Shown one piece after another: positions 8,741 to 25,270 of a stretch of 28,502 nt of DNA (the first letter of the stretch is position 1; each line of letters opens with the position of its first letter). The translations under genes were made by a program, and so were the position numbers. This stretch comes from a virus. The stretch covers positions 1-28,502 of the IMG/VR virus record IMGVR_UViG_3300011009_000010. The stretch is one strand, 5' to 3'. Below the pieces are notes generated by a model. The model did no database searches. It was given only the letters and a program-made list of their open reading frames with translations, and was not told the DNA's origin.

Positions 8741-8762
8741 AATAAAAGTTGTACATTTGTAT

Positions 8763-9194
8763 ATGATATTAAAAGAATTAGCTAAAAGTGATGTTAAATG
8801 GCGTGAAATGGCTTATAATATTTGCCGTGATAGAACATTAGCAGATGAGTTGGTGCAAGATATGTATATTAAGTTACATAGCATAGATAAAACCGTAACC
8901 GATGGATATATTTTTGTTACGTTACGGTCAATCTTTTACGATGGAATACGAAAGAGCAAAAAAGAAATACTTTTTGAAGATTTTGATAGGTTTATAATAG
9001 AGGATGAGCCGTATATCGAAGAGCCACAACCAGACTATGAAGAGCTAATAAAAGATTTAACGTGGTATGAAAAAACTACTTTTGAATTATCAACTTTAGT
9101 AGGGCAAAGAGAACTAGCAAGACAAACAGGAATACATATACAAACTATACACAGGGTTGCAAAAACAGTTAAAAATAAATTAAAAAATAAATAA
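8763..9194 (+). CDS. Sigma-70-like RNA polymerase sigma factor
   Basis: The 143-residue product from ATG 8763 has a region-2-like segment (residues about 12-65: WREMAYNICRDRTLADELVQ, then DMYIKL and FVTLRSIFYDGIRK). A region-4 helix-turn-helix follows at 104-140 (QRELARQTGIHIQTIHRVAK). This two-domain plan is like ECF-type sigma factors, with a weakly conserved, acidic linker (EEPQPDYEE). In phages such genes direct host RNA polymerase to late promoters. It stands just before the terminase and structural block. An upstream TTG (8757) is in frame but inside a TACATTTG sequence and was not chosen. Confidence 0.78.
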   Translation: MILKELAKSDVKWREMAYNICRDRTLADELVQDMYIKLHSIDKTVTDGYIFVTLRSIFYDGIRKSKKEILFEDFDRFIIEDEPYIEEPQPDYEELIKDLTWYEKTTFELSTLVGQRELARQTGIHIQTIHRVAKTVKNKLKNK

Positions 9195-10008: not shown

Positions 10009-10399
10009 AATTTTTAAAGAGCCCAAAGACTTAATGCAAGCGTGGGAAGAGTTCAAAGACGACGTTAAAAAACAATCATTAGAATGGGTTAAGGTTCAAT
10101 ACGTAGGTAAGGACGCAGTAAGAGTTGAAGAACCACAAAAAGTTCCATTAACTATGGAGGGGTATAAAAGATTTTGTCGTTTTAAATATGGTGAAGTTGA
10201 ACAATATTTTACTAATCAGGATAATTATTATGAAGACTTCATTGGTATCTGTCGCGCGATAAAAGAAGAGATAAGAGAAAACCAAATTATAGGCGGACTA
10301 TTAGGTTTTCATAATCCAAGTATAACACAAAGATTAAACAGCTTAGTTGAGAAAGTTCAAACGGATGTAAGCGTTACTAAATTTGAATTTGATGAGTAG
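9995..10399 (+). CDS. Terminase small subunit
   Basis: The 134-residue product contains the sequence blocks of a phage DNA-packaging small subunit: FKEPKDLMQAWEEFK at the start, VPLTMEGYKRFCRF in the middle (about 51-64) and QIIGGLLGFHNPSITQRLN (about 97-115). It binds the packaging site on the concatemer and loads the large subunit. It is directly followed by, and overlaps by 8 bases, the large subunit gene. The residues resemble known Bacteroidetes phage small terminases. Confidence 0.85.
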   Translation: MHPTRIFKEPKDLMQAWEEFKDDVKKQSLEWVKVQYVGKDAVRVEEPQKVPLTMEGYKRFCRFKYGEVEQYFTNQDNYYEDFIGICRAIKEEIRENQIIGGLLGFHNPSITQRLNSLVEKVQTDVSVTKFEFDE

Positions 10400-11585
10400 T
10401 GTAAAAGGATATAAACCGCATATAAATCAAAAAGTAATACACGATAGTATAAACAACGACCCGTATAAATATTATATCTTAAACATAGGTAGGCAGTTCG
10501 GAAAAACTATGTTAGGTATTAATCAAATGTTATACTGGGTAATCAATAATAAAGGTTGTAATATAGCGTGGGTAACACCAGTTTATAAGCAAGGAAAAAA
10601 AGTATTTGCGGAATTAGAAAAGGCTACTCGATTGAGTGGTCTTTTTGAGTTTAATCAAAGCGAACTAACTGTTAAAGGTTTTGGAAGTACTATATCTTTT
10701 TTTTCAGGTGAGAGACCCGATAATATTCGTGGTAATACATTTGACTATTTAATAATAGATGAGACCGCATTTACACGTGAGGAACTTTGGAGCGAGGTAC
10801 TTTCTGCAACCGTATTAGTAAAAGGTAAAAAGGTTTTATTTATTAGCACACCAAAAGGTAAAAACCATTTTTATAAACTATCATTGCAACCAAATTACGA
10901 TGAGCGATATAAATACTTTCATTTTACAAGTTATGATACACCATTTATTAATTCATTAGATTTAGAAGAACGTAAAAGAAGTTTACCAAGTCATATATTC
11001 AAACAGGAATATTTAGCTGAATTTTTAGATAATGCAAGTGGTTTATTTTCAAACGTTAGGGAGTGTATTAAAGAGCCTACAGACTCAACTAAATATCACG
11101 GTGGTTTAGATATTGGAAGAGCAGACGATTACACTGTATTGACTATTATAAACGAACATAAACAAATAGTATTTATAGAACGTTGGAGACAGGATGAGTG
11201 GACCAGCATAATAAATAAAGTAGCAGCTAAAATAAATGAATATAACGCACGGGTATTTGTAGAGGTAAATAATCAGGGTGACGTATTTTATGAAATGTTA
11301 AAAAAGTTATGCGGACAAAAAGTATATCCTTTTGTAACTTCAAGTAAAAGTAAACCGATAATGATTGAAGAGTTAGCAGTTTGCTTTGAGCAAAAAGATA
11401 TAAGTATCTTAGATATAAATTGGCTAATAGATGAGTTAGAAGCATTTACTTACATATATAACCCAAACACTCGTAACGTTCAATACAGCGCACCTACAGG
11501 CGTACACGATGATAGTGTAATTAGTTTAGCATTAAGTATTCAGGCACATAAGCAATTAAGAGCAAGAGAAGTTAGAATAACATAA
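10392..11585 (+). CDS. Terminase large subunit (ATPase-nuclease)
   Basis: I chose ATG 10392 (397 aa) over a TTG nine bases earlier. The ATPase domain has a Walker A-like NIGRQFGKT (31-39), Walker B YLIIDE (119-124) and the coupling motif FISTPKG (150-156). The nuclease domain shows LDIGRADDYT with D240 and D245/D246, VEVNNQGD with E291, and HDDSVISLAL with D373/D374, the expected RNase H-like acidic set. The motor translocates DNA into proheads at the portal and cuts it. The 397 residues are short but within range. Unusually, the next gene is a tail gene rather than the portal. Confidence 0.93.
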   Translation: MSSVKGYKPHINQKVIHDSINNDPYKYYILNIGRQFGKTMLGINQMLYWVINNKGCNIAWVTPVYKQGKKVFAELEKATRLSGLFEFNQSELTVKGFGSTISFFSGERPDNIRGNTFDYLIIDETAFTREELWSEVLSATVLVKGKKVLFISTPKGKNHFYKLSLQPNYDERYKYFHFTSYDTPFINSLDLEERKRSLPSHIFKQEYLAEFLDNASGLFSNVRECIKEPTDSTKYHGGLDIGRADDYTVLTIINEHKQIVFIERWRQDEWTSIINKVAAKINEYNARVFVEVNNQGDVFYEMLKKLCGQKVYPFVTSSKSKPIMIEELAVCFEQKDISILDINWLIDELEAFTYIYNPNTRNVQYSAPTGVHDDSVISLALSIQAHKQLRAREVRIT

Positions 11586-11599
11586 ACAAACATAAAAAT

Positions 11600-11614
11600 A
11601 AACGTTATAAGATT
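11600..11614 (+). promoter_or_regulatory. AAACGTT motif upstream of the tail block
   Basis: AAACGTT at 11600-11606 lies so that AACGTT starts exactly 14 bases before the ATG at 11615. The same motif with the same spacing occurs before 19374 and 22151. The gap between terminase and this gene (29 bases) is among the longer gaps of the late cluster. It may be a late promoter element, operator or translation element. Confidence 0.5.
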
Positions 11615-12307
11615 ATGAAGATAATAATTCCAACAGAGTTAAAAGATATAAGACTATCACAGTACTTGAGATACGTTCAAGTGGTAAAAGACAATCCAGA
11701 CGACGAGACTTTTATTTGTATTCAAATGGTTGCTATCTTTTGTAATTTAGATGTTAAGGAAGTAATGAAAATACCAGTTAATAATTTTACTGAAATTGTA
11801 GAAACAATTGCAAAGATGCTGGACCAAAAACCTAAATTAGTTCATACGTTTAAACTTAATAAAATCGAATATGGGTTTATTCCAAACTTTGATAAAATTA
11901 GTTTAGGTGAACACGCAACGATTGATACACTACTTGGTGACACTGATAATTTAGCTTTATTAATGTCAATACTTTACAGGCCAATTACAAAGAAAGCCTT
12001 ACCGTTTTATTCGATTGAACCATACGATGGAGACGAGAGTAAAGGCGAACTATTTAAAGAAGTTACAATGGATATTGTAAACGGTTCGCTACTTTTTTTT
12101 TGGACTTTAAGCAAAGAATTATTACCCAATATCCTTTGGCATTTGGAGAGCAAATCGAAGAGGGAGGGCGTGAATTTGGAGGAGGTTTTGGTGAACGCTG
12201 GGGGTGGTATTGGGCATTTATTAGAATTGCGAGAGAGCTTAGAATCAATGTACGAGAAGTTGGAAAAGAGCCTTTACACGAATCACTCACGCTATTATCT
12301 TTCTTAA
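11615..12307 (+). CDS. Tail assembly chaperone, short (zero-frame) product
   Basis: The zero-frame product is 230 aa. It is shared with the longer frameshift form up to residue 162 (FF at the T-run), after which it reads WTLSKELLPNIL and an amphipathic helical C-terminus ending in NHSRYYLS. I place it with lambda gpG-like chaperones, which coat the tape measure during tail assembly, on the basis of the frameshift layout and the neighbouring tail genes. The N-terminal 160 residues mix helices and strands (LRYVQVVKDNPDDETF, LLMSILYRPI) and recall Bacteroidetes phage proteins annotated as hypothetical. AAACGTT lies just before the start. Confidence 0.72.
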   Translation: MKIIIPTELKDIRLSQYLRYVQVVKDNPDDETFICIQMVAIFCNLDVKEVMKIPVNNFTEIVETIAKMLDQKPKLVHTFKLNKIEYGFIPNFDKISLGEHATIDTLLGDTDNLALLMSILYRPITKKALPFYSIEPYDGDESKGELFKEVTMDIVNGSLLFFWTLSKELLPNILWHLESKSKREGVNLEEVLVNAGGGIGHLLELRESLESMYEKLEKSLYTNHSRYYLS

Positions 12308-12357
12308 CAGACGAATCAAACGAGGAGCAAAAGAACATTAAAAAACATATCAAATGA
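11615..12357 (+). CDS. Tail assembly chaperone, -1 frameshift product
   Basis: A -1 slip at T TTT TTT (12094-12100) joins residues 1-162 to an 85-residue extension encoded by 12100-12354, stop TGA at 12355-12357, for 247 aa in total. The extension contains RWGWYWAFIRIARELRI and VGKEPLHESLTLLSFLTDE, which I recognise as typical of phage tail chaperone C-termini. It has no ATG of its own, so slippage is the simplest route to expression. The stop overlaps the next ATG (ATGA), as expected if ribosomes really terminate there. A homopolymer error in the sequence could mimic this. Confidence 0.7.
12094..12100 (+). other. Slippery heptamer for programmed -1 frameshift
   Basis: Within a T9 run (12093-12101) the zero frame reads CTT TTT TTT TGG. 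The heptamer T TTT TTT fits the X XXY YYZ rule, so both tRNAs can re-pair after slipping one base back. A GC-poor stretch follows with only a weak CCAA/TTGG stem at 12125-12138, and no strong pseudoknot is obvious near the site. Confidence 0.65.
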
Positions 12358-12815
12358 AATCATTCTATAATTCAATAGACTACATAAAAAGCACGCTTGA
12401 AAAGGCACCACTTTTAAATACAATTACGCACGGTACAGATATAATCGACAATACTAAAAAAAGTATTTTCCCTTTAGCACATATCAATATATTAAGTTCA
12501 AGCATTGGCCAAGGCGAAGTTAAATTCACTTTTGAAGTTGCAGTAGTAGATATAAGAAACGTATCTAAAATTAAAGTAAATGATAAGTTTTTAGGCAATG
12601 ATAATGAATTAGATAATTTGAACACGTGCCACGCAATATTAAACTTTATGATTACTAATATGCGACTGCAAAGAAATGAATTTGATATTGAATTATTAAA
12701 CGAGCCAAACTTACAACCTATTTTAATGGCATTTACTAATATGTTAGACGGATGGAAATGCGAGATAGAACTAAGTGTACCTAACAACCAAATAGAAGCT
12801 TGTAATGGATGCTAA
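12354..12815 (+). CDS. Probable tail terminator/neck protein (153 aa)
   Basis: It overlaps the chaperone frameshift stop by 4 bases (ATGA). The product has an N-terminal helix (YNSIDYIKSTLEKAPLLN) and then strands (AHINILSSSIG, VKFTFEVAVVDI), a helix (CHAILNFMITNMRLQ) and a final strand (GWKCEIELSVP). This alpha/beta order recalls gpU/gp15-like tail terminators that close the tail tube and meet the head. The assignment uses fold pattern and neighbours rather than a clear signature. It precedes a gp10-like protein, as expected for head-tail joining genes. Confidence 0.5.
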   Translation: MKSFYNSIDYIKSTLEKAPLLNTITHGTDIIDNTKKSIFPLAHINILSSSIGQGEVKFTFEVAVVDIRNVSKIKVNDKFLGNDNELDNLNTCHAILNFMITNMRLQRNEFDIELLNEPNLQPILMAFTNMLDGWKCEIELSVPNNQIEACNGC

Positions 12816-13329
12816 ACTAACTGAACAAGCATTAGCTGAGTTCGGAAATTACGTAATTGAAAGAGCCCAAGATAATTTAAAAAAGGGCGGGAAATATGGA
12901 ACACATAACACGAGCGGAAATCTTTCACGTTCGTTAACTTTCAAATCAAAAGTAAGTAAGAATTCTATTGCTTTTGACTTCTTTGCTGAAGACTATTGGA
13001 AGGAATTAGATTTCGGAACAAAGGGGAGTAAGTCGAGTAATAAAGCACCAAAAAGCCCTTACAAAGCACACGCAGAAAGAGGTAAAATTGATAAGTGGGT
13101 AGTTCGTAAAGGATTGCAAGGAGTAAGAAATCCAAACGGTAAGTTCACAGCACGTAAATTAATGGTAGCATCAATAACCAAATCAATAAATGAAACGGGA
13201 ACACCTGAGACTAAATTCTTTCGTAATGCTTTTGATTTAGAATACCAAAAGTTTGATGACACAATAGCAGAAAAATACGGATTAGATTTAGAAACATTCT
13301 TAAAATTCACACTAAAAAATATACAATGA
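12805..13329 (+). CDS. HK97 gp10-like tail completion protein
   Basis: The 174-residue product shows the gp10-like pattern: an N-terminal helix (LAEFGNYVIERAQDNLKK), TSGNLSRSLTFKSK, then a strand pair ending DYWKELDFGTKGSK (about 62-75). A C-terminal part with the typical FFRNAFD (about 138-144) follows. Proteins of this family sit at the head-tail junction and finish the tail. It overlaps its neighbours by 11 and 4 bases. An insert rich in K, G and P (76-115) is usual for the group. Confidence 0.75.
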   Translation: MDAKLTEQALAEFGNYVIERAQDNLKKGGKYGTHNTSGNLSRSLTFKSKVSKNSIAFDFFAEDYWKELDFGTKGSKSSNKAPKSPYKAHAERGKIDKWVVRKGLQGVRNPNGKFTARKLMVASITKSINETGTPETKFFRNAFDLEYQKFDDTIAEKYGLDLETFLKFTLKNIQ

Positions 13330-14384
13330 TAGTAATTAGCGCACGTTCACCATATCACATTACAATAAACGAATCAGGACAAACAGGTAGTAAGGTAGAG
13401 TTATTCATTTGGAACAAAGGAACAACCGAACCAACAGTACCTATATACACTTTAAGCGAACCAATTGCAAGTGTTACTCAAACGCAAACAAATTATAATA
13501 TATCACCATATGTAGCTGAATATATAAACCAAGTTCACGCAGATGCGGTTAGTAATATTACGTATGAAAATGACACGGATTGGTGCTTGGTAAAAGTTAA
13601 AAGATATAAGCTAATTAACGATATAGCTACTTTATTAAACACGGTAGAATACGTTGGAGTAAATGGATTCACACAATATTTAAACGGGGTAAACCTAAAC
13701 AAAACACTAGGAGAAAACTATTTATTATTAGCGAATGAAAGTATTAAAAATCAATGGAACACAACGGCAACTTTTTATAATTTTATAGTTCAAAGAGCTG
13801 ATTTAGATTGGAAGGTAAAATATTACGATAATGCAAATTTATTATTATATACTGAAACTTTTTTGACTTCAGGAGCAACAGAATTTTATAATTTTAGAAT
13901 ACCATTAGTATTTACTACTTCGGTTAAAGCCGAAATAGAAAACAGTGCAGATGGAGTTATTTATACAATTCATACAGAGCAAGTAGAGGAATGTAAATAC
14001 ACGCCTGTTAATTGTTCATTTGTAAATTCATTTGGAGGTTGGCAAAACTTAGTATTCTTTAAAGCAAAAACTAACAGCATAACTGTTAAAAGTTCCGAGT
14101 ATAATTTAATGCAGGAAAATGTAAGTTATGATATTCATATAGGACAAAAAAGAACAATGAATACAAACGGAAATGAAAATGTAAAACTAAACACTGGGTG
14201 GGTTGCTGAGAATTACAAAGAGCTATTAAGAGATTTATTGCTTAGTGAAATAGTTTTGTTAAACGACGAACCCGTAACGGTTAAAACGCAATCATTAACC
14301 TATAAAACACAATTAAAAGATAAGATGATTAATTACGAAATTGAATTCGATTATGCTTTTAACTTATTAAATAACGTATCATAA
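13326..14384 (+). CDS. Tail/baseplate structural protein (352 aa)
   Basis: A beta-rich 352-residue protein starting with MIVISARSPYHITI and containing repeated strand segments (GSKVELFIWNKG, NYNISPYVAEYINQ, WKVKYYDNANLLLY). I have seen related sequences as hypothetical tail proteins in Bacteroidetes siphophages. Position between the gp10-like gene and the 877-residue tail protein supports a distal tail or baseplate place. Start overlaps the previous stop by 4 bases, and the end by one base with the next gene. No enzymatic motif is seen. Confidence 0.65.
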   Translation: MIVISARSPYHITINESGQTGSKVELFIWNKGTTEPTVPIYTLSEPIASVTQTQTNYNISPYVAEYINQVHADAVSNITYENDTDWCLVKVKRYKLINDIATLLNTVEYVGVNGFTQYLNGVNLNKTLGENYLLLANESIKNQWNTTATFYNFIVQRADLDWKVKYYDNANLLLYTETFLTSGATEFYNFRIPLVFTTSVKAEIENSADGVIYTIHTEQVEECKYTPVNCSFVNSFGGWQNLVFFKAKTNSITVKSSEYNLMQENVSYDIHIGQKRTMNTNGNENVKLNTGWVAENYKELLRDLLLSEIVLLNDEPVTVKTQSLTYKTQLKDKMINYEIEFDYAFNLLNNVS

Positions 14385-17017
14385 TGGTAACAGCTGAAAT
14401 ATACATAAAGAAAAACACACTTGTTTATTCAGGAGTTGCAACCGATGATAATACAGACCCTTATTTAACAATTACAGAAAGTTCTGCAGGGTTTGGAGTA
14501 AACGAATATAAAGGTCACTACATTAAAATAACTAAGGGAACGGGCTTAGGTTTAGTAGCGTGGATTGCTTCAAATACAAGTACTGTATTCACTTTACAAA
14601 CACCGTTACAAGTTTCTAACGGTTCTAACTTTGAAATTTATAGAAGTGATTATCAAAAATTAGATTTATTCAACGATGAGAAAATAAGTTTAACAAGTTC
14701 ATTACAAAATGCAAATGATTTAGGGAAAATATATACAGACTATTCGCAATCATTTACTATTCCTGCATCTAAAAGAAACAACAAAATACTATCACATTGG
14801 CACGATAGTTCATTGGACAATGGTTACGACCACAGGATACGTTACGATGCTTATATCGAACTAAATACAGCTAGGTTTAAAGATGGCAACATACAGTTAG
14901 AGAAAGCAAATAAGAAAAACGGATTTATTGAAAGTTACACTATTACTTTTTATGGAAATTTAACACAGCTAAAAGATAAATTTAAAGATACAAAGTTAAG
15001 GGATTTAGTAGGATGGAATGATTTGAACCATTTGTACAATTCTGGCGAAATTAAAGACCGTATAACAAACGTATTAAATTACAATGTTAACTATCCTTTA
15101 ATTGGTTCGACTAAAAAATACTACTATAAGAATGGAGTAGCCGACCAGGATATTACATTACCAACAGCTAAAATAGTTTGGAGTGAATTGTTCCCAGCGG
15201 TTAAGTTACCTAAAGTTTTTGATATAATTCAACAAGCTTTTGGAGTTACTTTTACAGGTTCATTTTTCAATTTACAACAGTGGACAAAGTTAAATTTATA
15301 CTTGAAAAACGCTGAAGAAATGAAGGCACAAAGTTCAAAATTAGATATTGACTTTGTAACTTCGACTTCTTTACCTGAGTTAAACCTTACCACAAATGCG
15401 CTTACAAACACTTGGAGTTGGGGTGCGGGATTGAACAGACCAACGATAAATATTTATTTAACTATTACGCCACAAACAGGATTTACAACGATACCATATA
15501 GTATTTATGTGTACAGAGATGGAAACGAATACAGACGGTTTGACTTTGCTACAGGAGGAACCCAAACGGTTGAGTGTGAGGGTTTGAGAAAAGAAAACGA
15601 CCCAGCTACACATACATATACATTTAAAATAAGTTCACAAAGTTTATTGACTTTTAAGCCTACTTTAAGACTTCAAAGAAGTTGGAATGTTGGTATTTGG
15701 GGTTATTCAAATGGGTACGCTTACAACACGTCGGGACAGTCAACACAAGCAGATATTCAAATAGCAAACTTTGTACCCGATATTACTGTGGATGCTTTTA
15801 TAACGGGAATTATTAAGACTTTCAATTTAATGATTTTACCAACAGCAAAAGACACTTATAATTTTGTACCGTTGGAGACTTTTTACGGTGAGGGTAAAAC
15901 AATCGATATAACTAAATATGTTTATTCAGATGAAGCGGATATTGAAAGACCAAAACTATTTAAAGCAATTAATTTTCAGTATGAAACTAGCAATAATGTT
16001 TTAAACAACAAGTTCAAAGGTTTATATAATACTGAGTACGGTGACTTAATTTACACAAATAACAATAGTAATGAAAGTTCTAATTATGATATTAAACTAC
16101 CATTTGAAAATGTTTTATTTGAAAGAACAGTAGGGGAAAACTTTTTAACAGCAAGTATAATTGATAAGGATTTAAAACCTTACACGCCAAAACCTATGTT
16201 AATTTATGCAAACGAATTGACAAGTTTATCCACGCCCGTAATAATGACTACCGAATTATCTACAACGACTTTTAATTCTTATTTACGATTTTCAAATGAA
16301 GTGAACTTACTACCTACAGACTTGACGTATTCACAGCTATACACAATGAATTTTAGCAATGAACAAAGTCCTTGGTATAATGTATTAGCACCTCAAGGAT
16401 TGTATTATCGTATGTATAAAAACTACATTGATAATCTGTACAATATTAAAACAAGAGTAATAAAAATAAAAGCAATTTTACCATCAAGTTTATTAAATTC
16501 AAGTGTAAAAAATAGAGCGGGCAGACCTATTGGAATAGCTTTAAATGATAGGTTAATAATTCGTAATAAAAGGTACATAATAAACAACTATACGATTGAT
16601 TTAACGAGCGGTGAGACAACCTTTGAACTAATCACAGACTACAGAGGAATTAATGCTAAAAACAGCGTAGGTTATAGGTTTGCGAGTATAGACAATGTAC
16701 AAGTTGACTACACTGAACAAGAAATTGAAGAGGTTATTTACTTAAATGATTACGATTATTTTCATATTAAAGGAGCTACTAATTTTTTAGTGTACCCAGA
16801 CAGCCTAAACAATACAGCAGATGTTGCGTTAACTGTATTGATACCATTAAATGATACAGGAGTTGACAGAACAGACGTAATAGGTATTGAATATTATACA
16901 AACGATATACTGCAAACTACCGAATATATAACAGTTTTACAGCAAACAGACTATTTAATGACAGAAATGAACGAAATATTAACAACAGAATCAGACGAAC
17001 CAATAACTTTAAATTAA
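14384..17017 (+). CDS. Large tail/baseplate protein (877 aa)
   Basis: The largest gene in the window. The segment near residues 75-120 (LDLFNDEKISLTSSLQNAND, SQSFTIPASKRNNKIL) and the following beta domain match a tail protein family seen in many Bacteroidetes siphophages, where it takes the place of the tail hub or host-contact protein. A further block (about 470-560) resembles hub-like sequence (FITGIIKTFNLMILPT), and the C-terminus is beta-sandwich-like. It is expected at the tail tip. No peptidase or glycosidase motif was recognised. Unusually, it lies before the tape measure gene. Confidence 0.72.
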   Translation: MVTAEIYIKKNTLVYSGVATDDNTDPYLTITESSAGFGVNEYKGHYIKITKGTGLGLVAWIASNTSTVFTLQTPLQVSNGSNFEIYRSDYQKLDLFNDEKISLTSSLQNANDLGKIYTDYSQSFTIPASKRNNKILSHWHDSSLDNGYDHRIRYDAYIELNTARFKDGNIQLEKANKKNGFIESYTITFYGNLTQLKDKFKDTKLRDLVGWNDLNHLYNSGEIKDRITNVLNYNVNYPLIGSTKKYYYKNGVADQDITLPTAKIVWSELFPAVKLPKVFDIIQQAFGVTFTGSFFNLQQWTKLNLYLKNAEEMKAQSSKLDIDFVTSTSLPELNLTTNALTNTWSWGAGLNRPTINIYLTITPQTGFTTIPYSIYVYRDGNEYRRFDFATGGTQTVECEGLRKENDPATHTYTFKISSQSLLTFKPTLRLQRSWNVGIWGYSNGYAYNTSGQSTQADIQIANFVPDITVDAFITGIIKTFNLMILPTAKDTYNFVPLETFYGEGKTIDITKYVYSDEADIERPKLFKAINFQYETSNNVLNNKFKGLYNTEYGDLIYTNNNSNESSNYDIKLPFENVLFERTVGENFLTASIIDKDLKPYTPKPMLIYANELTSLSTPVIMTTELSTTTFNSYLRFSNEVNLLPTDLTYSQLYTMNFSNEQSPWYNVLAPQGLYYRMYKNYIDNLYNIKTRVIKIKAILPSSLLNSSVKNRAGRPIGIALNDRLIIRNKRYIINNYTIDLTSGETTFELITDYRGINAKNSVGYRFASIDNVQVDYTEQEIEEVIYLNDYDYFHIKGATNFLVYPDSLNNTADVALTVLIPLNDTGVDRTDVIGIEYYTNDILQTTEYITVLQQTDYLMTEMNEILTTESDEPITLN

Positions 17018-17022
17018 AAATT

Positions 17023-17412
17023 ATGAGAATTTCAGAATTACCAGAATATACAGGAGCACCAAGCGAAACGGCACAATGGCCAGCAAATATTGGAGGTACA
17101 ACTTATAGAGTACCACTTTCGAAAATGTCATTTGATGTCATAAATCTACCTTATACCTATACGGCAGTAGGTACAACTACAGTACAAACAATTAATAAAG
17201 CATCTGGAAGTGTTAATGCTGCAATCGCTACATTATCAGTTACGGTTAATAATAATAAAGTAACTGCAAATTCTATGGTATTCGCGGTTTTTATGACAAA
17301 CGATGCAGCGGGTGCGGTTAAGAATGTTGTTTGTGGAAGTGGCACTTTTACAATTAATTTTACAGCGGGATTAGCAGGGGAAACACGAGTAGGATTCTTT
17401 GTAATTAATTAA
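17023..17412 (+). CDS. Small beta-sandwich tail or fibre-associated protein (129 aa)
   Basis: The N-terminus (MRISELPEYTGAPS) looks like the ISELP segment that often begins phage fibre or baseplate proteins. The remainder is beta-rich (TVQTINKASGSVNAAI, KVTANSMVFAVFMTN, GTFTINFTAGLAGE). It resembles a single C-terminal fibre domain without a shaft. It may decorate the tail tip encoded by the gene before it. Five bases separate the two genes. Confidence 0.55.
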   Translation: MRISELPEYTGAPSETAQWPANIGGTTYRVPLSKMSFDVINLPYTYTAVGTTTVQTINKASGSVNAAIATLSVTVNNNKVTANSMVFAVFMTNDAAGAVKNVVCGSGTFTINFTAGLAGETRVGFFVIN

Positions 17413-17414
17413 TT

Positions 17415-17561
17415 ATGATACAACACATAATAGAAATGCTAAAATTAGCAGAGCAGTACGAGTACAACGAAATAATTTCAATTGCAAAAGGGAAATATGA
17501 ATATCCAAAATCTAACTATCAACTTTTTAAAAAGTTATTAAAAATCAAATTAAATAAATAG
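17415..17561 (+). CDS. Small hypothetical protein (48 aa)
   Basis: ATG two bases after the preceding stop, TAG two bases before the tape measure start. The product is one or two helices (HIIEMLKLAEQYEYNEIISI) with a basic C-terminus (FKKLLKIKLNK). It fills a gap in the tail block neatly, so it is likely expressed. Chaperone or tape-measure partner is possible but unproven. Confidence 0.5.
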   Translation: MIQHIIEMLKLAEQYEYNEIISIAKGKYEYPKSNYQLFKKLLKIKLNK

Positions 17562-17563
17562 AA

Positions 17564-19336
17564 ATGATAGAGAAAGTTATTGATTTACAAATAAAAAGCA
17601 ACGCAGACCAAGCCGTTGGTAGTCTTAAAAGCCAATTACGGGAAGCACAGGCTGAAGTCGCTACATTATCAGATAAGTTTGGAGCAACTTCGCAAGAGGC
17701 TATTAATGCTGCTAAAAGAGCGGGGGAGCTTAAAGATAGGATAGGAGACGCAAAAGCATTAACCGATGCATTTAACCCCGATGCTAAATTCAAAGCTTTA
17801 AGCGCTTCTTTGAGTGGCGTAGCGGGTGGGTTTGCAGCGGTACAAGGCGGTATGGCTTTATTTGGTAGTCAATCGGAAGACGTAGAGAAAACTTTACTAA
17901 AAGTTCAGTCTGCAATGGCACTTTCGCAAGGCTTACAATCAATTGGTGAAAGCGTAGATTCATTTAAGCAGTTAGGAGCGGTATTAAAAAGTACGTCTGT
18001 AATACAAGGTATTTATAATTTTGTACAAACAGGTAGTTTAACAGCATTAAAAGCGAATACAGTAGCAACAGAAGCTCAAACAGTAGCAACAGAAGTTGGA
18101 GCAGTAGCAACAGCAACAGCAAGTGGTGGATTGAAACTATTTAGGTTAGCATTAATCGGTACTGGAATTGGTGCTATTGTTGTAGGTTTAGGATTATTGA
18201 TTGCTAATTTCGATAAGGTAAAAAAGGTAATAATGAACCTTATACCGGGTTTAGCATCAGTAGGGGATTTTATAGGTGGTATTGTAGATTCAGTAACTGA
18301 CTTTGTCGGTGCAACTTCAGACGCTACAAGAGCCGTTGATAAACTTAAAAAAGAAGCTGAAACAACACTTTCAGTTAATAAAAAGTTTATGCAGGAACAC
18401 GGCGACCAAGTAGATGAGTATACAAAGAAAAAAATAGATGCAAAAAATGCGTATGCTGAAGCGGTAAAAGAAGACGGAGCAAATCAAACTGAATTAGCTA
18501 AAAGACTAAACAGAGAATTAGCAGAAATAGAATATTCAAGAGGCGACGAAAAAAGGAAAATTCAAAAAGAGGCAAACGAAAAAGCAAACGCAGATAAAAA
18601 AGCCGATAATGAAAAAGCAATTGAATTAGAAAAAGAAAACCAAAAGAAATATGCTGAAGAAACAAAAACAGGATTACAAATATTAACCCAAGCAAATTTA
18701 GATAATCAAGCTCAAATAAAATTAGATAAAAGAAATTTATTAGATGAACAAATAGCATTATTAAACGAGGGCGTTGACGCTGAACAACAAGCTGAAACAA
18801 AAATAACTGAAAATTCAAAAACAAACGCAGATGCAAGGGTAAAACTTTCAGAGGCTGAAGCAGCAGCAAAACAAGCCTTATTTGCAAAAAGTGCCGATGT
18901 ATTATCAAAGGGTGCTGATTTGTTAGGTAAGAATACAGCAGCAGGAAAATCAATGGCAGTTGCAGCAGCATTAATAAACACATATCAAGGTATTACAACT
19001 GAATTAGCAACTAAAACAGTCACGCCATTTGAAATAGGTTTGAAAATAGCGAACGTTGCTATAATAGCAGCTACAGGATTTAAAGCGGTTAAAGATATTA
19101 TTGCCGTTAAAGTGCCTGGGGGTGGTGGCGGTGGAGCAGTACCAAGCGGTGGGGCTATGGGTGGCGCACCAAGCCCACCAAGTTTTAATATCGTAGGAGC
19201 AAGCGGAACAAATCAAATAGCTCAAGCAATAGGAGGGCAACAACAACAACCTGTACAAGCCTATGTAGTTGCAGGGGCGGTAACAACGGGACAAAGTTTA
19301 AATAGAAATATTATTGCAAACGCATCAATGGGTTAA
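17564..19336 (+). CDS. Tape measure protein
   Basis: At 590 residues, it has long coiled-coil helices at the start (LKSQLREAQAEVATLSDKFG, about 21-40) and a hydrophobic helix (LALIGTGIGAIVVGLGLLIA, about 195-214). A charged central rod rich in K, E, A and Q (255-430) follows, then a glycine-rich segment (GGGGGGAVPSGG) and an alanine-rich C-terminus. These are standard tape measure features; the protein sets tail length and is ejected into the cell. Using about 0.15 nm per residue, the tail would be near 90 nm. It lies downstream of the tail-tip genes rather than beside the chaperone. A 21-base tandem repeat lies at 18059-18121. Confidence 0.88.
   Translation: MIEKVIDLQIKSNADQAVGSLKSQLREAQAEVATLSDKFGATSQEAINAAKRAGELKDRIGDAKALTDAFNPDAKFKALSASLSGVAGGFAAVQGGMALFGSQSEDVEKTLLKVQSAMALSQGLQSIGESVDSFKQLGAVLKSTSVIQGIYNFVQTGSLTALKANTVATEAQTVATEVGAVATATASGGLKLFRLALIGTGIGAIVVGLGLLIANFDKVKKVIMNLIPGLASVGDFIGGIVDSVTDFVGATSDATRAVDKLKKEAETTLSVNKKFMQEHGDQVDEYTKKKIDAKNAYAEAVKEDGANQTELAKRLNRELAEIEYSRGDEKRKIQKEANEKANADKKADNEKAIELEKENQKKYAEETKTGLQILTQANLDNQAQIKLDKRNLLDEQIALLNEGVDAEQQAETKITENSKTNADARVKLSEAEAAAKQALFAKSADVLSKGADLLGKNTAAGKSMAVAAALINTYQGITTELATKTVTPFEIGLKIANVAIIAATGFKAVKDIIAVKVPGGGGGGAVPSGGAMGGAPSPPSFNIVGASGTNQIAQAIGGQQQQPVQAYVVAGAVTTGQSLNRNIIANASMG
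18059..18121 (+). repeat. 21-base tandem repeat in the tape measure gene
   Basis: Three copies begin at 18059, 18080 and 18101. The first two share ACAGTAGCAACAGAAG exactly and the third has diverged. They encode 7-residue units containing VATE/VATA (about residues 166-186). In-frame repeats in a tape measure can change tail length by small steps. Confidence 0.8.
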
Positions 19337-19356
19337 AGTTTATAACAATTAATTTA

Positions 19357-19373
19357 TAAAACGTTTTAAAATT
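19357..19373 (+). promoter_or_regulatory. AAACGTT motif upstream of the capsid block
   Basis: TAAAACGTTTTA at 19357-19368 is a perfect 12-base palindrome. Its AACGTT core starts 14 bases before ATG 19374, the same spacing as at 11615 and 22151. The 37-base gap here is one of the few in the structural cluster. No terminator precedes it. Confidence 0.5.
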
Positions 19374-20450
19374 ATGGAAACATACACAGTTTTATTTAAC
19401 GAACAAGACAATCAGGGGGTTTATGCTATATCCTTAGTAAACGACCCCGCAATAGGCGTTAATTTCATTACACTATCTAATCAAAAGGAATTAAAACTAG
19501 CTACTGTAAACGAAGAGCAACGTATCTTAATGGGTGCTATATTAATTCCTGAACAGCCTATTTATAGAAATCAGGATGGTAAAGAATTTAACATAGTATT
19601 TCCAAAAGAAACTATTAAACAAGTTCAACAAAACTTTGCATTAAAAGGCTATCAAAACAATTCAACATTAGAGCACTCAGGCGAACAAATTGAAAATGTA
19701 ACCTTTGTTGAAAGTTGGATAAAAGAAGACGAAGTACACGACAAATCAGTGCATTATGGTTTTAATGAACCCGTAGGTACTTGGTTCGGATTAATGAAAA
19801 TAAATAACGATGTTATTTGGAATGAATATGTTAAAACAGGAAAAGTAAAAGGCTTTAGTATTGACGGAGTCTTTGATATGCAGAAAATTGATTTAAACAA
19901 TGAACAAATGGATTTAAAAACAATCGTAGATGCGATTAAAGAGGGGTTTGCATCGGTAAAATTATCGAATGAACCAGAAGTACCAGCAGTTGTAGAATTG
20001 GCTACAATGAAGTTAAAAGACGGAGTAACCGTATTAGAAGCAGAAAGCTTTGAAGTAGGTCAATCAGTGTTTATCGTTGCTGAAAATGGCGACAAAGTAC
20101 CAGCACCAGTTGGAGAACACGAATTGGAAGACGGTAGAATTTTGGTAATTACTGAAGAGGGTAAAATCGGAGAAATTGCAGAGGCTAAAACTGAAGCGGT
20201 AGAGGAAGAGGTAGCAATGACAAACACCGACCAATTTACTGAAATGATTAAACAAATTATTACTTCTATGTCGGTTGAAGTTGCTAGACAAATTGAAACA
20301 GTAAAAACCGAATTAAAAGCTGAAATTGCAGAAACAAAAACAAAAGTTGAAGTAAAAGCTTCGACAAAATCAAAACCTGAAACTTTCGTAGAAAAAAGTT
20401 ATTCAGAAATGACAAACTTTGAAAAATTAAAATTTAACAGAAACAATTAA
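19374..20450 (+). CDS. XkdF-like prohead protease with C-terminal scaffold-like region
   Basis: Residues 49-168 match the XkdF/S78-type prohead protease: RILMGAILIPEQPIYR, LEHSG with H101, VESWI (113-117) and KGFSIDG with S162. H101 and S162 are the likely catalytic pair. Residues about 208-265 form a second conserved block (LKDGVTVLEAESFEVGQSV, PVGEHELEDGRILVI). Residues 285-335 are helical and charged, like a scaffolding domain. The protease would cleave scaffold and capsid precursor during maturation. It sits directly before the major capsid gene, as expected. Confidence 0.82.
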   Translation: METYTVLFNEQDNQGVYAISLVNDPAIGVNFITLSNQKELKLATVNEEQRILMGAILIPEQPIYRNQDGKEFNIVFPKETIKQVQQNFALKGYQNNSTLEHSGEQIENVTFVESWIKEDEVHDKSVHYGFNEPVGTWFGLMKINNDVIWNEYVKTGKVKGFSIDGVFDMQKIDLNNEQMDLKTIVDAIKEGFASVKLSNEPEVPAVVELATMKLKDGVTVLEAESFEVGQSVFIVAENGDKVPAPVGEHELEDGRILVITEEGKIGEIAEAKTEAVEEEVAMTNTDQFTEMIKQIITSMSVEVARQIETVKTELKAEIAETKTKVEVKASTKSKPETFVEKSYSEMTNFEKLKFNRNN

Positions 20451-20462
20451 ACAAAAAAAACA

Positions 20463-21497
20463 ATGGCAGTATCATTTACAGGTGCGAAAACCGCACAATC
20501 AGAGTACCCAGAAATTATAAAAGAAGTTTATGCAGATTCACCAACTTTTAGAGGTGAAACAATAGAACTTGTTGAGGGGCATAAATCAGGAATGGACATT
20601 TACGAAAGTTCCGCAGAGGTTACATTTTCAAGTGCAAATTACGGTCCAGTAACAGCTGACAACGTAGCGTTGAAATCACAAAAATCAACAGTTAACTTAA
20701 AGACTTTCAATGTTGAAGGAATTATAGATGAAAGTTCTTTGTTGGGTACACGCTACCAAAAATCAATGAAAGCGGGAGCTTTTGAAGTTGTTTCAGACGA
20801 ATTCGACCAAAAGGTTTTAATTCAAGTTCAACCAGCAACTTCTGCAAAATTAGAAAGCGGAGTTTGGAATGGTGCAACTACAGCAACGAAAGCAGCTATT
20901 GCAGCATTAACACCTGGAGCAGCACAAGGTTCAATTAGTGCAGGTGCACAAACTTTAGTAGCAGCAATGCCAACTACTTTGTTTGACTCAGTACCAGCTA
21001 CAATGTTGTACAATGATTCACAATCAAAAGCAGTACCGGGAGCAGGTTTAGGAGACTACAAAAAAGTATTGTCAATTGCAGCTGTTACAAGTGCTACAAT
21101 TGTTGCAGAATATGTAAAAATATTTAATACTATTCCTGACGAAGTTTTAGTATTAACTGGAGACGATGCACCAGTTATTTATGCACCAAAAGGTGACTAT
21201 AAATTAATCAAAACTGTAAACAGAGTTCAAGGGGCAGCGTTGCAAGAAAACTTCGTAGGAAGTACTTTTAACGATATGTATTTCAACGATGTTAAAATTG
21301 TGTTCGTTGACTTGGTAGGATTTAGAATTGCAGCACAAAAATTCAACTTGAAATTGGTTATGGATTTACTTTCTGACTCAAGTCAATTGATTATCGAGAA
21401 AGAAGCTAACGCATCTACAAGACGTATCATTAAAATTATCAACACAATGACTACTTGGGTTGTTAAACAAAAATGGAACGTACTTTACGCAGGATAA
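20463..21497 (+). CDS. Major capsid protein
   Basis: The 344-residue product follows the protease gene and is itself followed by a strong terminator, the usual setting for a HK97-fold major capsid gene. Its composition (Ala, Val, Thr-rich; few Cys) and less AT-biased, regular codon use also suit an abundant structural protein. N-terminal residues 1-60 look like an N-arm and E-loop region (SSAEVTFSSANYGPVTAD). The C-terminus (FRIAAQKFNLKLVMDLLSD) resembles capsid A/P-domain strands. No cleavage site is obvious. Fold is inferred from context. Confidence 0.8.
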   Translation: MAVSFTGAKTAQSEYPEIIKEVYADSPTFRGETIELVEGHKSGMDIYESSAEVTFSSANYGPVTADNVALKSQKSTVNLKTFNVEGIIDESSLLGTRYQKSMKAGAFEVVSDEFDQKVLIQVQPATSAKLESGVWNGATTATKAAIAALTPGAAQGSISAGAQTLVAAMPTTLFDSVPATMLYNDSQSKAVPGAGLGDYKKVLSIAAVTSATIVAEYVKIFNTIPDEVLVLTGDDAPVIYAPKGDYKLIKTVNRVQGAALQENFVGSTFNDMYFNDVKIVFVDLVGFRIAAQKFNLKLVMDLLSDSSQLIIEKEANASTRRIIKIINTMTTWVVKQKWNVLYAG

Positions 21498-21505
21498 TAT
21501 TAATC

Positions 21506-21534
21506 AAAACCGCTTATTAATTTAAGCGGTTTTT
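21506..21534 (+). terminator. Intrinsic terminator after the major capsid gene
   Basis: An 11-bp perfect stem (21506-21516 with 21523-21533), loop TTAATT and a T-run at 21530-21534. It starts 8 bases after the capsid stop. It would raise capsid message over downstream genes. Confidence 0.88.
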
Positions 21535-21547
21535 AATAAAAAAATAT

Positions 21548-22072
21548 ATGAGTTGTTTAATTAGCAAGGGTAAATTGTTGGCTTGTAAAGACCAACGAGG
21601 TGGAATAAAAAATATATATTTTGCAAACTATTTAGACTATTCTTTTGTAATTGCAGCACACGCAATTACGAGTTTAGGAAGTTTAACTGAGGTTTTCAAA
21701 TATGAAGTTAAAGCAACGACCAACGCTTTGACTGAAACGGGTACAAGTTCAGAAGACAATGGAACTTTTTTAAATGCACAATCTTTAGCAGTTACTTTGC
21801 CTAAATTAGGTACTGACTTACAAGCTCAAGTACAATTGATTTGTCTAGGAAGACCTTATGTGTTTATCGAAGACTATAACGGTAACGTTTTATTGGTTGG
21901 CGCAACGAATGGAACAATGGCTAATTGTACTAAGGCTTCAGGCGGTGCAGGTGGTGATTTAAGCGGTTATACACTAACTATTACAGCTGAAGAGGGTAAT
22001 TTGTCACCTTTCTTAGACGCTACTACTAAAACAGCGTTACAAGCGTTGGTTTCAGATGTCGTAGTTTCTTAA
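21548..22072 (+). CDS. Probable major tail (tube) protein
   Basis: The 174-residue product begins MSCLISKGKLLACKDQRGG and has strand-rich sequence with a C-terminal helix (FLDATTKTALQALVSD). It resembles a group of Bacteroidetes phage proteins in the position of the tail tube gene. A size near 170 residues, a single beta-barrel-like domain and its own terminator behind it all suit an abundant tube subunit. It lies apart from the tail block. An alternative is a capsid decoration protein. Confidence 0.55.
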   Translation: MSCLISKGKLLACKDQRGGIKNIYFANYLDYSFVIAAHAITSLGSLTEVFKYEVKATTNALTETGTSSEDNGTFLNAQSLAVTLPKLGTDLQAQVQLICLGRPYVFIEDYNGNVLLVGATNGTMANCTKASGGAGGDLSGYTLTITAEEGNLSPFLDATTKTALQALVSDVVVS

Positions 22073-22091
22073 ATTACAATAGATTAAAATT

Positions 22092-22118
22092 AAAAAGCTA
22101 CTTCGGTGGCTTTTTTTT
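22092..22118 (+). terminator. Intrinsic terminator with UUCG tetraloop
   Basis: A 10-bp stem (22092-22101 with 22106-22115, one T-G wobble) is closed by the very stable C(TTCG)G loop. Eight Ts follow at 22111-22118. It lies 20 bases after the probable tube gene and closes the capsid/tube unit. Confidence 0.92.
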
Positions 22119-22135
22119 GTTACAATAACTAAGTA

Positions 22136-22150
22136 AAACGTTTAACAACT
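22136..22150 (+). promoter_or_regulatory. AAACGTT motif upstream of the portal-to-lysis block
   Basis: AAACGTTT at 22136-22143; AACGTT begins 14 bases before ATG 22151. It directly follows the TTCG terminator, so a new transcript must begin about here. That makes this the best of the three sites to be a promoter element. Confidence 0.55.
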
Positions 22151-22459
22151 ATGAACATATTTAACTTAACAAAACCGTATAGACTTAATTGCATACCTAG
22201 AGCGTATAACGACGGGGTTATTACGTTGCTTTTAAGGGACGAATTAAAGGATTTAACACATATAATTAGCGTAGATAGTATATACTACCAAAATAGCGTT
22301 TTAATGCTTAGTTTTGAGGATATAACACTAAAAGAGGGTCAATCATTTGAGGTAATAATCAAAGAAAACGACCAATTAATATACAGAGGCAAAGCATACG
22401 CAACGGCACAAACAGATTTTGAGAATTTCGAACTAAATAAAGGGGTTTTAAAAGCCTAA
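22151..22459 (+). CDS. Hypothetical structural-region protein (102 aa)
   Basis: First gene after the second terminator, preceded by AAACGTT. The 102-residue sequence is beta-rich (YRLNCIPRAYNDGVITLLL, QSFEVIIKENDQLIYRGKAY) and ends in an acidic helix. I know similar sequences only as hypothetical neighbours of portal or capsid genes in Bacteroidetes phages. It is likely a virion or assembly protein by position. Confidence 0.6.
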   Translation: MNIFNLTKPYRLNCIPRAYNDGVITLLLRDELKDLTHIISVDSIYYQNSVLMLSFEDITLKEGQSFEVIIKENDQLIYRGKAYATAQTDFENFELNKGVLKA

Positions 22460-22464
22460 AAGAT

Positions 22465-24369
22465 ATGGAAAAACTACAATTATTAACACTATCTAACTAT
22501 ATAAGACCTGAAATTAAGGAAGTTTCTGGTAAAAAGTGGGTATTAAATGGTAAAAACAACGAATTTTATAAAACAATTATAGATGCTTATAACGGTTCGC
22601 CTACAAATTCCGCTATTATAGACAGTTATAGTCAGTTTATTTACGGCAAAGGTTTAACTTCAACTGACAAATTAGCTAAGACTTCAGAATGGGCAACTAT
22701 TGTTTCTTTGTTTTCAAAAAAAGACTTAAGAAAAATTTGTAAGGACTTCGAAATGTTTGGGGAGGCTTCAATTGAAATCAAATATTTAAACAATAAAATA
22801 CAAAAGTGTTTTCACGTAGCAAAACAAAAGATTGCGCCTGAGGTTGCTAATGAAGATGGTGATATTGCAGGTTATTATTTTAGCTATGACTTTACAAATA
22901 CTAACAAATATAAACCTGAAAGATTTGACGCTTTTGGATTTGGTTCAGGCGGTGGCGAACGTTCTGAAATTTATGTAATTAAAGACTATCAGGTAGGTCA
23001 ATTCTATTACAGCAACCCAAGTTATGTAAGTGGTATTTCGTGGGCTAAAATGGAAGAAGAAATTTCTAACTATTCAATTAACCATATACAAAATGGTTTG
23101 TCTTTTGGGCATATCATAAATATGAATAGTGGAGTTCAACAATCAGAAGAAACTATTATCGAAAATACAAGAGCTATTAGAGACAAACTTACAGGCTCAA
23201 GTAATGCAGGTAAATTCTTTTTAAATTGGAATGACAATAAAGATAGCGCAATTACAATTGAAGCTTTAGAAGTATCAGAAGCGCATCAACAGTATATTTA
23301 TTTAAGTACCGAAGCAAGACAGCAATTATGTACGTCTCACAAACTTACTTCCCCTATGTTGGTTGGAATAAAAGAGGCGAGTGGTTTTAGTTCAAATGCT
23401 GAAGAAATAAAAGTGGGTTTTGCGGAATTAATGATTAACGTAATTAAACCAAAACAAGAAATTATTTTAGATGGTTTAATGGAAATTTGTGCGGTAAATG
23501 GAATTACTTTACAATTGGATTTTGAAAGTTTAAGAGCTGAAGACGTAGTAGATAATGTAGCAGGAGTTGACGCAGGAGTTACAGATGCAGCGGTTTCATA
23601 TAACGGTGCGCAAATTTCAAGTGCAATTGATATTTTCGCAAAAGTTAAAGAGGGAATTTTAACAACAGAACAAGCGGTTGTATTTTTAGTTCAATTTTTG
23701 AACATACCTGCAAGTGTAGCAACTTCTTTATTTTCGCCAACGGTTGCACCTATCACACAATTAGAAAATCAGAAAGTTTGTTGTTCTAACGATAATACAG
23801 ACCTTACAAGCATAGCTGATGCACTTATTGAAATGGGGGAAGTTGTAGATGAGAATGAATGGGAAGAGGTAGATTCAATACCCGTAACTGAACAATTAGA
23901 AATAAACGAAATTACTTTAAATTTAGCTAAAACATTTTCAAGTTTTCCAAACGTAAAAAGCGACCAAGATACTTCATTATTTAAAATTAGATATTCGTAC
24001 GAGGGTGCGCTTGGAGCAAAAAGAGACTTTTGTCAAAAGATGGTAAGTGCAAGTAGAACTTATCGTAAAGAGGATATAACGTTAGCTGAAACTAAAACAG
24101 TTAATAAAGGTTTTGGAGCAAGTGGAGCAGATAACTATTCTATATGGTTATATAAAGGTGGAGTTAATTGTAATCACTTTTGGATGCGCAAAATTTACTT
24201 AAGAAAAAACAATACACAACTTACAGTTAATGAAGCTAGAAAAATGATATTAGAACTAGACCCGAAAGACCGACCAGAAGCAAAGTGGCAACAAAATGAA
24301 AATGAAGTAGCGCAAATTGCAAGTGCAAGTAATAATTTTTGGAGCTTAAAACCTAACTACCGTAAATAA
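22465..24369 (+). CDS. Portal protein with C-terminal CxH domain
   Basis: The 634-residue product has portal-like sequence: an N-terminal clip/wing region, FEMFGEASIEIKY (about 95-107), FNSGV-like helices (SFGHIINMNSGVQQSEE), and the EARQQLCTSHKLTSPMLVGI segment (about 286-305), which corresponds to the conserved stem/crown region. Residues about 504-575 form an extra domain with YSYEGALGAKRDFC (C523) and KGGVNCNHFW (C569, H571, W573), which resembles MuF-type head morphogenesis C-termini. Portal and MuF-like domain joined in one chain would link the packaging channel with an internal head protein. It overlaps the next gene by one base. No separate MuF gene is seen. Confidence 0.8.
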   Translation: MEKLQLLTLSNYIRPEIKEVSGKKWVLNGKNNEFYKTIIDAYNGSPTNSAIIDSYSQFIYGKGLTSTDKLAKTSEWATIVSLFSKKDLRKICKDFEMFGEASIEIKYLNNKIQKCFHVAKQKIAPEVANEDGDIAGYYFSYDFTNTNKYKPERFDAFGFGSGGGERSEIYVIKDYQVGQFYYSNPSYVSGISWAKMEEEISNYSINHIQNGLSFGHIINMNSGVQQSEETIIENTRAIRDKLTGSSNAGKFFLNWNDNKDSAITIEALEVSEAHQQYIYLSTEARQQLCTSHKLTSPMLVGIKEASGFSSNAEEIKVGFAELMINVIKPKQEIILDGLMEICAVNGITLQLDFESLRAEDVVDNVAGVDAGVTDAAVSYNGAQISSAIDIFAKVKEGILTTEQAVVFLVQFLNIPASVATSLFSPTVAPITQLENQKVCCSNDNTDLTSIADALIEMGEVVDENEWEEVDSIPVTEQLEINEITLNLAKTFSSFPNVKSDQDTSLFKIRYSYEGALGAKRDFCQKMVSASRTYRKEDITLAETKTVNKGFGASGADNYSIWLYKGGVNCNHFWMRKIYLRKNNTQLTVNEARKMILELDPKDRPEAKWQQNENEVAQIASASNNFWSLKPNYRK

Positions 24370-24881
24370 TGGAAACGACTATTTTATTAAGAGAAAACGA
24401 ATTAACTAAAAATACTTTGTTAGGTGGGAATATAGACATAGACCTTTATATTCCGTGCATTAAAGATGCTCAAATTATAAGACTTGAAGAAATTTTGGGT
24501 GAGACATTATACGATAAGATTTGTTTAGACTTTGAAAACGACGATTTAAGCGGGCTTTATTTAACGTTACACGAAAAATACATAGTTCCTTTTTTAGTTG
24601 CAGCAGCAGCCGTTGAATATCTTTTAATAGGTGCGTACAAAGTAAATAACAATGGTATCTTTAAGGCACAACCTGAAAATAGCGTAGCAATCGAAAAAAA
24701 CGAAGTAGATTACTTAGTTAATAATATGCGGTTAAAATCAGAAATGTATAGTGATAGAATGACTAGATGGTTAATTTTAAATAATCTACCTGAGTGGCAG
24801 CCTAATGCTACAAACGTTGTAAATCCTTTAAGTAGTAATTTAATGTTTGGGCGTTGGTTTATTGGCGAGGACAAAATTTAA
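24369..24881 (+). CDS. Head-tail connector (adaptor) protein
   Basis: This starts in the last base of the portal stop (TAATG). The 170-residue sequence (LIRENEL-like start, CIKDAQIIRLEEILGETLYDK, YIVPFLVAAAAVEYLLIGAYKV) is predominantly helical. It resembles the DUF6712-like and gp6-like adaptors found next to portal genes. Its role would be a ring below the portal that carries the neck. The closing part (MTRWLILNNLPEWQP) is common in this group. Confidence 0.65.
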   Translation: METTILLRENELTKNTLLGGNIDIDLYIPCIKDAQIIRLEEILGETLYDKICLDFENDDLSGLYLTLHEKYIVPFLVAAAAVEYLLIGAYKVNNNGIFKAQPENSVAIEKNEVDYLVNNMRLKSEMYSDRMTRWLILNNLPEWQPNATNVVNPLSSNLMFGRWFIGEDKI

Positions 24882-24886
24882 AAGTT

Positions 24887-25021
24887 ATGAGAAAAACAGA
24901 TAAAAGAACAATTGAAAATATTAAAAAACTTAAACAATTTATAAAAAATGGGAACTTTAAACTTAACAGCCAAGAGGGGGGACACGTTTCTAGAGGTGCC
25001 GTTTCAAATAGTAATAAATAG
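24887..25021 (+). CDS. Micro-ORF (44 aa) overlapping the next gene
   Basis: ATG five bases after the connector stop, reading a basic peptide (MRKTDKRTIENIKKLKQF). The frame continues 74 bases into the next gene. The first half looks like a plausible helix; the second half is composed by the overlapping gene. It could be a leader that couples translation to 24948 or simply a chance frame. Confidence 0.3.
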   Translation: MRKTDKRTIENIKKLKQFIKNGNFKLNSQEGGHVSRGAVSNSNK

Positions 25022-25268
25022 TGTACCGCTTAATTTAACGGGTGCGGTTATTAGAATGCAAGTGCGTAAAGATGCGGGCACACCTATTGTTTTCGAGCCT
25101 ACAATAACTATTACAAACGCTTTAACGGGTAGTTTTAAAATTGCCGAACAGATTTTTAATGTGCCAGCGTGCATTTATAAATATGATATTGAAATTGAAC
25201 AAACTACAGGCGAGGTTAATAGTTGGATTTATGGTATTTTTGAAATTACTAACGATATAACACGTTAA
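24948..25268 (+). CDS. Beta-rich fibre adaptor-like protein (106 aa)
   Basis: The sequence starts MGTLNLTAKRGDTFLEVPF and continues as regular strands (NLTGAVIRMQVRK, FKIAEQIFNVPACIYKYDI). This pattern fits the immunoglobulin-like N-domain of BppU-type baseplate proteins, in which RGDTF followed by LTGA is common. Two bases separate it from the tail fibre gene, so it probably attaches the fibre to the tail tip. The call rests on motif resemblance. Confidence 0.6.
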   Translation: MGTLNLTAKRGDTFLEVPFQIVINSVPLNLTGAVIRMQVRKDAGTPIVFEPTITITNALTGSFKIAEQIFNVPACIYKYDIEIEQTTGEVNSWIYGIFEITNDITR

Positions 25269-25270
25269 CT

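Follow-up and report, generated by a model that had tools for sequence, protein, structure and literature searches.

Does a run of nine thymines (T9) within a phage gene serve as a programmed frame switch that yields two proteins from a single start and, if so, which machine slips on it? The question is raised by a 230-residue frame located directly 3′ of the terminase gene (10383-11585) in virus record IMGVR_UViG_3300011009_000010, whose 28.5 kb (28,502 nucleotides; GC content of 31%) were analyzed as a whole and are referred to below as the window. The initial annotation, made from the letters alone, described the frame as a tail assembly chaperone gene with a probable programmed -1 frameshift at the T9 run.

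The features of the locus are listed in Table 1. The run and its zero-frame codons, the 85-residue extension without an ATG that is joined at residue 162, and the ATGA overlap are all present as had been claimed, and the slip point, which had been put at about 70% of the zero-frame product, lies at 69% of it, where the run begins. The -1 frame is open from position 12058 to position 12357, and a slip would join zero-frame residue 162 to the extension to give a GT-like product of 247 amino acids. No other run of nine or more A or T residues occurs in the window. Two T8 runs are present, one at 10697-10704 (inside the terminase gene) and one at 22111-22118. An ATGA sequence at which the -1 frame ends and the next gene starts was found in 88 out of 127 relatives. 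A stop codon in the third frame is located no more than four codons past the run in 377 of the 384 loci among the matches listed; it would end any +1-frame product and the products of other slips, and the residues encoded in the two coding frames partly dictate its presence.

Table 1. Coordinates of the features at the T9 locus (window numbering)
Feature	Position	Strand	Remarks
T9 run (putative slip site)	12093..12101	+	zero frame CTT TTT TTT TGG; in-phase heptamer T TTT TTT at 12094-12100
230-aa zero-frame gene; short, G-like form of a probable tail assembly chaperone	11615..12307	+	phrog_32199, E 1.1e-19
-1 frame extension, 85 codons, conserved WGWY motif	12100..12357	+	conserved in relatives
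Dual-coding overlap of zero-frame tail (68 aa) and -1 extension, both constrained	12102..12304	+	
TAA stop of the +1 (third) frame, three codons past the run	12108..12110	+	
ATGA shared by the -1 frame stop and the start codon of the downstream gene (12354-12815)	12354..12357	+	

An alignment of homologues had been proposed as a check of the frameshift. The virus collection was scanned with both protein sequences as well as N-terminal domain profiles, whose patterns exclude the run. Several hundred relatives were fetched, among them at least 384 distinct complete loci that reach past the site, and the family is larger. All 384 distinct complete loci among the matches listed carry the run, as T9 in 301 and as T10 in 83, and in every one of them it is positioned to lead into the same -1 frame. 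The flanks of these relatives, 659 kb in all, contain 15 T9 runs, and conservation of the run at the site is far beyond chance. The -1 extension is 79-91 residues long in the 384 loci, and both frames are kept in all of the loci listed save one in which the -1 frame is cut. This locus (L127/L111; L127, positions 528-665; contig IMGVR_UViG_3300010885_015316) is the sole relative among the matches listed with a nonsense codon in the extension, after 45 of 86 residues; its zero frame is intact, and the nonsense codon may be a real loss or a sequence error. The expectation that a T10 run would refute the frameshift did not hold, since many relatives with T10 keep both frames through a codon gained or changed beside the run.

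The run is also found in distant relatives. Two cultured Nonlabens phages with ca. 30% protein identity carry both T9 and the -1 extension. T9 is likewise present in a Galbibacter prophage and in two far more distant Flavobacteriales genome loci (profile search, E 2.9e-4); copies with the same run in bacterial genomes number three. The WGWY region of the extension, which the initial annotation had singled out as RWGWYWAF, and a HESL-like region are conserved among relatives, and at larger distances the -1 frame is better conserved than the zero-frame tail. The bacteriophages that carry the run, marine and freshwater, form a large group, and the retention of T9 or T10 together with both frames supports a programmed frame switch through which two proteins that differ in their ends would come from one gene. 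Conservation down to ca. 30% identity thus bears out the switch into the -1 frame postulated at the outset; the ribosome is a possible agent of it.

The length of the run is restricted on both sides. Runs of seven or eight T, or of eleven and more, were found in none of the 384 loci listed. On a tree of 226 representatives (the C-terminal part of two outgroup loci was entered in the zero frame, which affects only the outgroup), codon 1 of the site underwent no fewer than 40 changes and codon 4 no fewer than 54, and the run still comprises 9-10 T. Flanking changes compensate for each other, a T lost on one side being gained on the other, in three states: TTT TTT TTT CTN in 14 loci, AGT TTT TTT TTT in four and GCT TTT TTT TTG in two distant genome loci. 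About four independent origins of such compensation are inferred. When codon 4 encodes leucine, all 14 loci with TTT as codon 1 use CTN and all 52 loci with another codon 1 use TTR, so that the run comes to 9-10 T; this choice of a leucine codon is not silent, since one residue of the -1 frame also changes. When left and right extensions were shuffled, the probability that all runs reach nine or more was at most 5e-5 at every clustering level (no more than one in 20,000 trials). Since related sequences are not independent, the case for a restricted run length rests on the four origins and not on this value. Phenylalanine codons at the site are TTT in 768 of 768 cases and never TTC (384 loci among the matches listed), while in the N-terminal portions of these genes TTC makes up 21% of the phenylalanine codons.

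These properties can be set against what is known about RNA polymerase (RNAP). The T-run range reported for transcriptional realignment is above eight (PMC3711429), A/T runs of nine nucleotides have the length that is selected against in many bacterial genomes (PMC1088944), the RNA:DNA hybrid in RNAP is 9 nt long, and insertions prevail at A/T runs (PMC5574713). One inserted U would lead into exactly the -1 frame. An A/T homopolymer of about nine or more that is kept across several codon phases, as expected of programmed transcriptional realignment, is what is seen at this site. We infer from these sequence patterns that RNAP is the more probable machine to slip: transcriptional insertion of one U is moderately favored over a purely ribosomal -1 shift, because the range of 9-10 T, the compensating flanks and the absence of TTC are not needed by a ribosomal heptamer, whereas slippage by RNAP does require a run of this kind.

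The strongest competing explanation is purely ribosomal -1 frameshifting at T TTT TTT, as in the G/GT genes of lambda and E/E′ of P2, the longer run only lifting the efficiency. An in-phase slippery heptamer (X_XXY_YYZ) is indeed present as T TTT TTT in all 384 loci among the matches listed, as it must be, because any T9 contains one. Both U_UUU_UUC and U_UUU_UUU are efficient ribosomal heptamers in E. coli (PMC4066793). All the published cases of tail chaperone recoding that we found are ribosomal, P2 uses T TTT TTG within a T6 run, and the compensations on which the case for RNAP turns amount to only about four independent events. On the other hand, this explanation predicts neither the lower bound of nine, nor the upper bound of ten, nor flank compensation, nor the absence of TTC. 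A hairpin 31 nt downstream of the run, which would suit a ribosomal mechanism, is predicted in the window's own clade only, and no conserved 3′ stimulatory RNA structure was found among the relatives: for a 60-nt segment starting 10 nt downstream, the mean z was -1.3, and the consensus structure was weak, at -2.8 kcal/mol. No Shine-Dalgarno-like site was seen by eye upstream of the run. A ribosomal slip on T TTT TTT is thus a possible mechanism that we hold to be real competition and yet not the probable one.

A small open reading frame at 8757-9194, upstream of the terminase gene, is positioned like a Nonlabens gene annotated with a σ70 region 2. If a phage σ factor is encoded there, it might drive late transcription across the T9 run.

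To find out what the two frames downstream of the run encode, divergence was measured pairwise in the window's clade (39 representatives below 95% identity). The amino acid difference is 0.213 in the -1 extension and 20.5% in the N-terminal domain, i.e., equal, while synonymous differences amount to 0.207 in the extension and 0.425 in the N-terminal part. Wobble positions of the -1 extension differ by 0.235 within the overlap with the zero frame and by 0.424 past the zero-frame stop. The zero-frame tail has an amino acid difference of 0.298, compared to 0.47-0.54 in non-coding frames over segments of equal size, and it contains no stops per 67 codons where control frames contain 3.8-9.3. When codons were redrawn with the -1 protein kept fixed, the probability that the zero frame stayed open was, on average, 0.017 per sequence. 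The same pattern of constraint was observed, in smaller samples, in clades with zero-frame tails of 62, 56 and 55 residues. Both C-termini are therefore under constraint at the protein level, and the overlap of the frames, which extends over ca. 200 nt downstream of the run, is dual coding. It follows that the switch would be a choice between two functional C-termini, of 68 or 85 residues. The initial annotation described the extension but missed that the zero-frame tail is itself selected, which makes the switch more than a read-through extension.

A rival to this reading is that the zero-frame tail has no function, only the -1 product being a real protein and the zero frame being open by chance. 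The tail is just 25 residues long in the cultured Nonlabens phages, an exception in the family, and the better conservation of the -1 frame at a distance points in the same direction. We nevertheless consider this explanation improbable: in every clade tested, the tail is stop-free and better conserved than a non-coding frame, the codon permutation leaves little room for an open frame by chance, and tail lengths are tightly clustered at 55, 56, 62 and 68. Structure runs were made without rows from the Nonlabens phages. In an AlphaFold2 model of the zero-frame protein (mean pLDDT of 79), a long helix, 152-183, spans the slip point, and the two products would therefore share the start of this helix and diverge within it.

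It is still less probable, to the point of being hardly credible, that the -1 frame constitutes a gene in its own right, read from an internal start. The deposited annotation of Nonlabens phage P12024S does split the locus into two genes, and in the window, a TTG is found at position 12100. Among the 384 loci listed, however, only 102 have a codon immediately past the junction that could serve as a start, and ATG and GTG are absent from the opening of the frame to 30 codons past the junction in 352; an internal start is rejected because no start codon is conserved. Finally, homopolymers are error-prone, and an artefact of assembly or sequencing might be suspected, but this is ruled out by the same run in 384 independent loci among the matches listed, two cultured phages and three bacterial-genome loci.

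The identity of the protein was approached by profile and fold searches. The gene family corresponds to phrog_32199 and phrog_38404, both annotated as of unknown function. The tail family phrog_166 is matched weakly by 17 of 54 members (best E 0.0013); the P2 chaperone gpE matches the same family with an E of 4e-7. Neither the proteins of the window nor the extensions matched Pfam, no chaperone model of NCBIfam was matched, and weak NCBIfam matches to σ factors and others were read as chance. No match was obtained in a PDB fold search. In BFVD, strong fold matches were to uncharacterised proteins only, and those matches of both domains that carry a function were to tail assembly proteins, weak, with probabilities of 0.16-0.89. 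Profile comparisons by hhalign, made with single sequences against lambda G, HK97 gp13 and P2 gpE, returned nothing.

The gene does not occupy the usual position of chaperone genes, between the major tail protein and tape measure genes, a position that is typical though not strictly defining. A probable tape measure gene is located 5.2 kb downstream; the same gene order is present in Nonlabens P12024S and, by eye, at a distant genome locus. In the surroundings of the tape measure gene, no further candidate for recoding stood out, and a search for the tape measure protein in named phages gave no match. The organization is that of lambda-type chaperone genes, with a single start, a shared N-terminal domain and a C-terminal extension reached through the -1 frame. 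Taken together, the weak homology, the weak fold matches and the gene order make the role of a tail assembly chaperone quite likely, and the functional assignment made at the start is plausible on the basis of phrog_166 and the folds, though unproven.

The order of modules at 10383-28348 of the window is unusual: terminase, tail genes and tape measure are followed by a protease-like gene, a possible capsid gene and a portal gene (22465). One of the weak fold matches, protein AGN89393 of Flavobacterium phage 6H, was examined as a contrasting case, in view of its short slip site, and set aside, its -1 frame stopping just after the site. An unannotated frame of 105 codons directly follows AGN89393 on the minus strand (L197, 10044-10361). 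The 6H gene may also be frame-split, because the matched phrog_25418 has 293 positions compared to 191 amino acids.

Like lambda G/GT, the locus has one start, a short product and a -1 frame extension that runs up to the next start codon, and the ratio of products is presumably set by the slip. Unlike lambda, whose slip site is GGGAAAG, it has a run of 9-10 T; the two families have no detectable sequence homology, and the gene follows the terminase gene, whereas lambda-type genes precede the tape measure gene. The candidate slip is also located ca. 200 nt upstream of the zero-frame stop, and the overlap that this creates is conserved and dual coding. Known tail chaperone frameshifts mostly occur 20-40 nt before that stop, the mean distance being 36 nt in the set of Xu et al. 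and 26 nt in that of SEA-PHAGES (PMC10885494). The E/E+E′ pair of P2 shares a T-rich slip site, read T TTT TTG, and the phrog_166 match of gpE noted above; it differs in that its run is T6 only and its stop lies ca. 20 nt further on, and the profile comparison was negative.

Programmed transcriptional realignment has been described for Thermus thermophilus dnaX (A9), Shigella mxiE and spa genes, Citrobacter tssM1 (A11) and IS elements (PMC5009743, PMC4256274, PMC1088944). The common features are a conserved A/T run of at least nine at the frame junction, a nearby stop in the third frame and a need for two length variants. The case described here, a candidate for this class, differs in that it concerns a phage structural-assembly gene and has long dual coding. 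We found no paper in the open-access literature that links transcriptional slippage to tail chaperones. The direct homologues are genes 38 and 39 of Nonlabens phages P12024S/L (AFM54699.1/AFM54700.1), which share T9, the -1 extension and the gene order, and differ in being annotated as two hypothetical proteins and in their 25-aa zero-frame tail. For the frames deposited as separate hypothetical genes at 23136-23830 of JQ823122.1, a joined feature would be more accurate.

We propose the following scheme. From a single start, most mRNAs and ribosomes would yield the 230-aa zero-frame product. A fraction would carry, or be read with, an extra U at the T9 run and give the 247-aa product, the 85-residue -1 domain taking the place of the final 68 residues. 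The host RNAP most likely slips on U9 and adds one U; the ribosome may contribute, since U UUU UUU, an in-phase heptamer, is part of the run. If the analogy with lambda G/GT holds, one product would be a tail assembly chaperone and the other its frame-shifted partner, and they would be produced at a fixed ratio. Considered as a whole, with one start, two proteins, slippage mainly by RNAP and a lambda-like chaperone pair, this scheme appears slightly more probable than an even call.

Recoding of tail chaperones is textbook ribosomal frameshifting, conserved across tailed phages. Published frameshift predictors give weight to a zero-frame stop that follows the slip closely, a feature absent from the T9-run family, and the split of the gene into two hypothetical proteins in the deposit of a cultured Nonlabens phage is a practical annotation issue. 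The long dual-coding overlap is a rare case in which both C-termini are visibly under selection, and their roles are therefore testable one by one. Whether phages of aquatic Bacteroidota type set the ratio of two tail chaperone forms transcriptionally, by slippage at 9-10 T within a two-base window, and keep two functional C-termini within 200 nt is, in our estimate, evenly poised. If so, the switch would have been moved to RNAP or doubled there, and evolution would keep the ratio of the products and not the machine that sets it.
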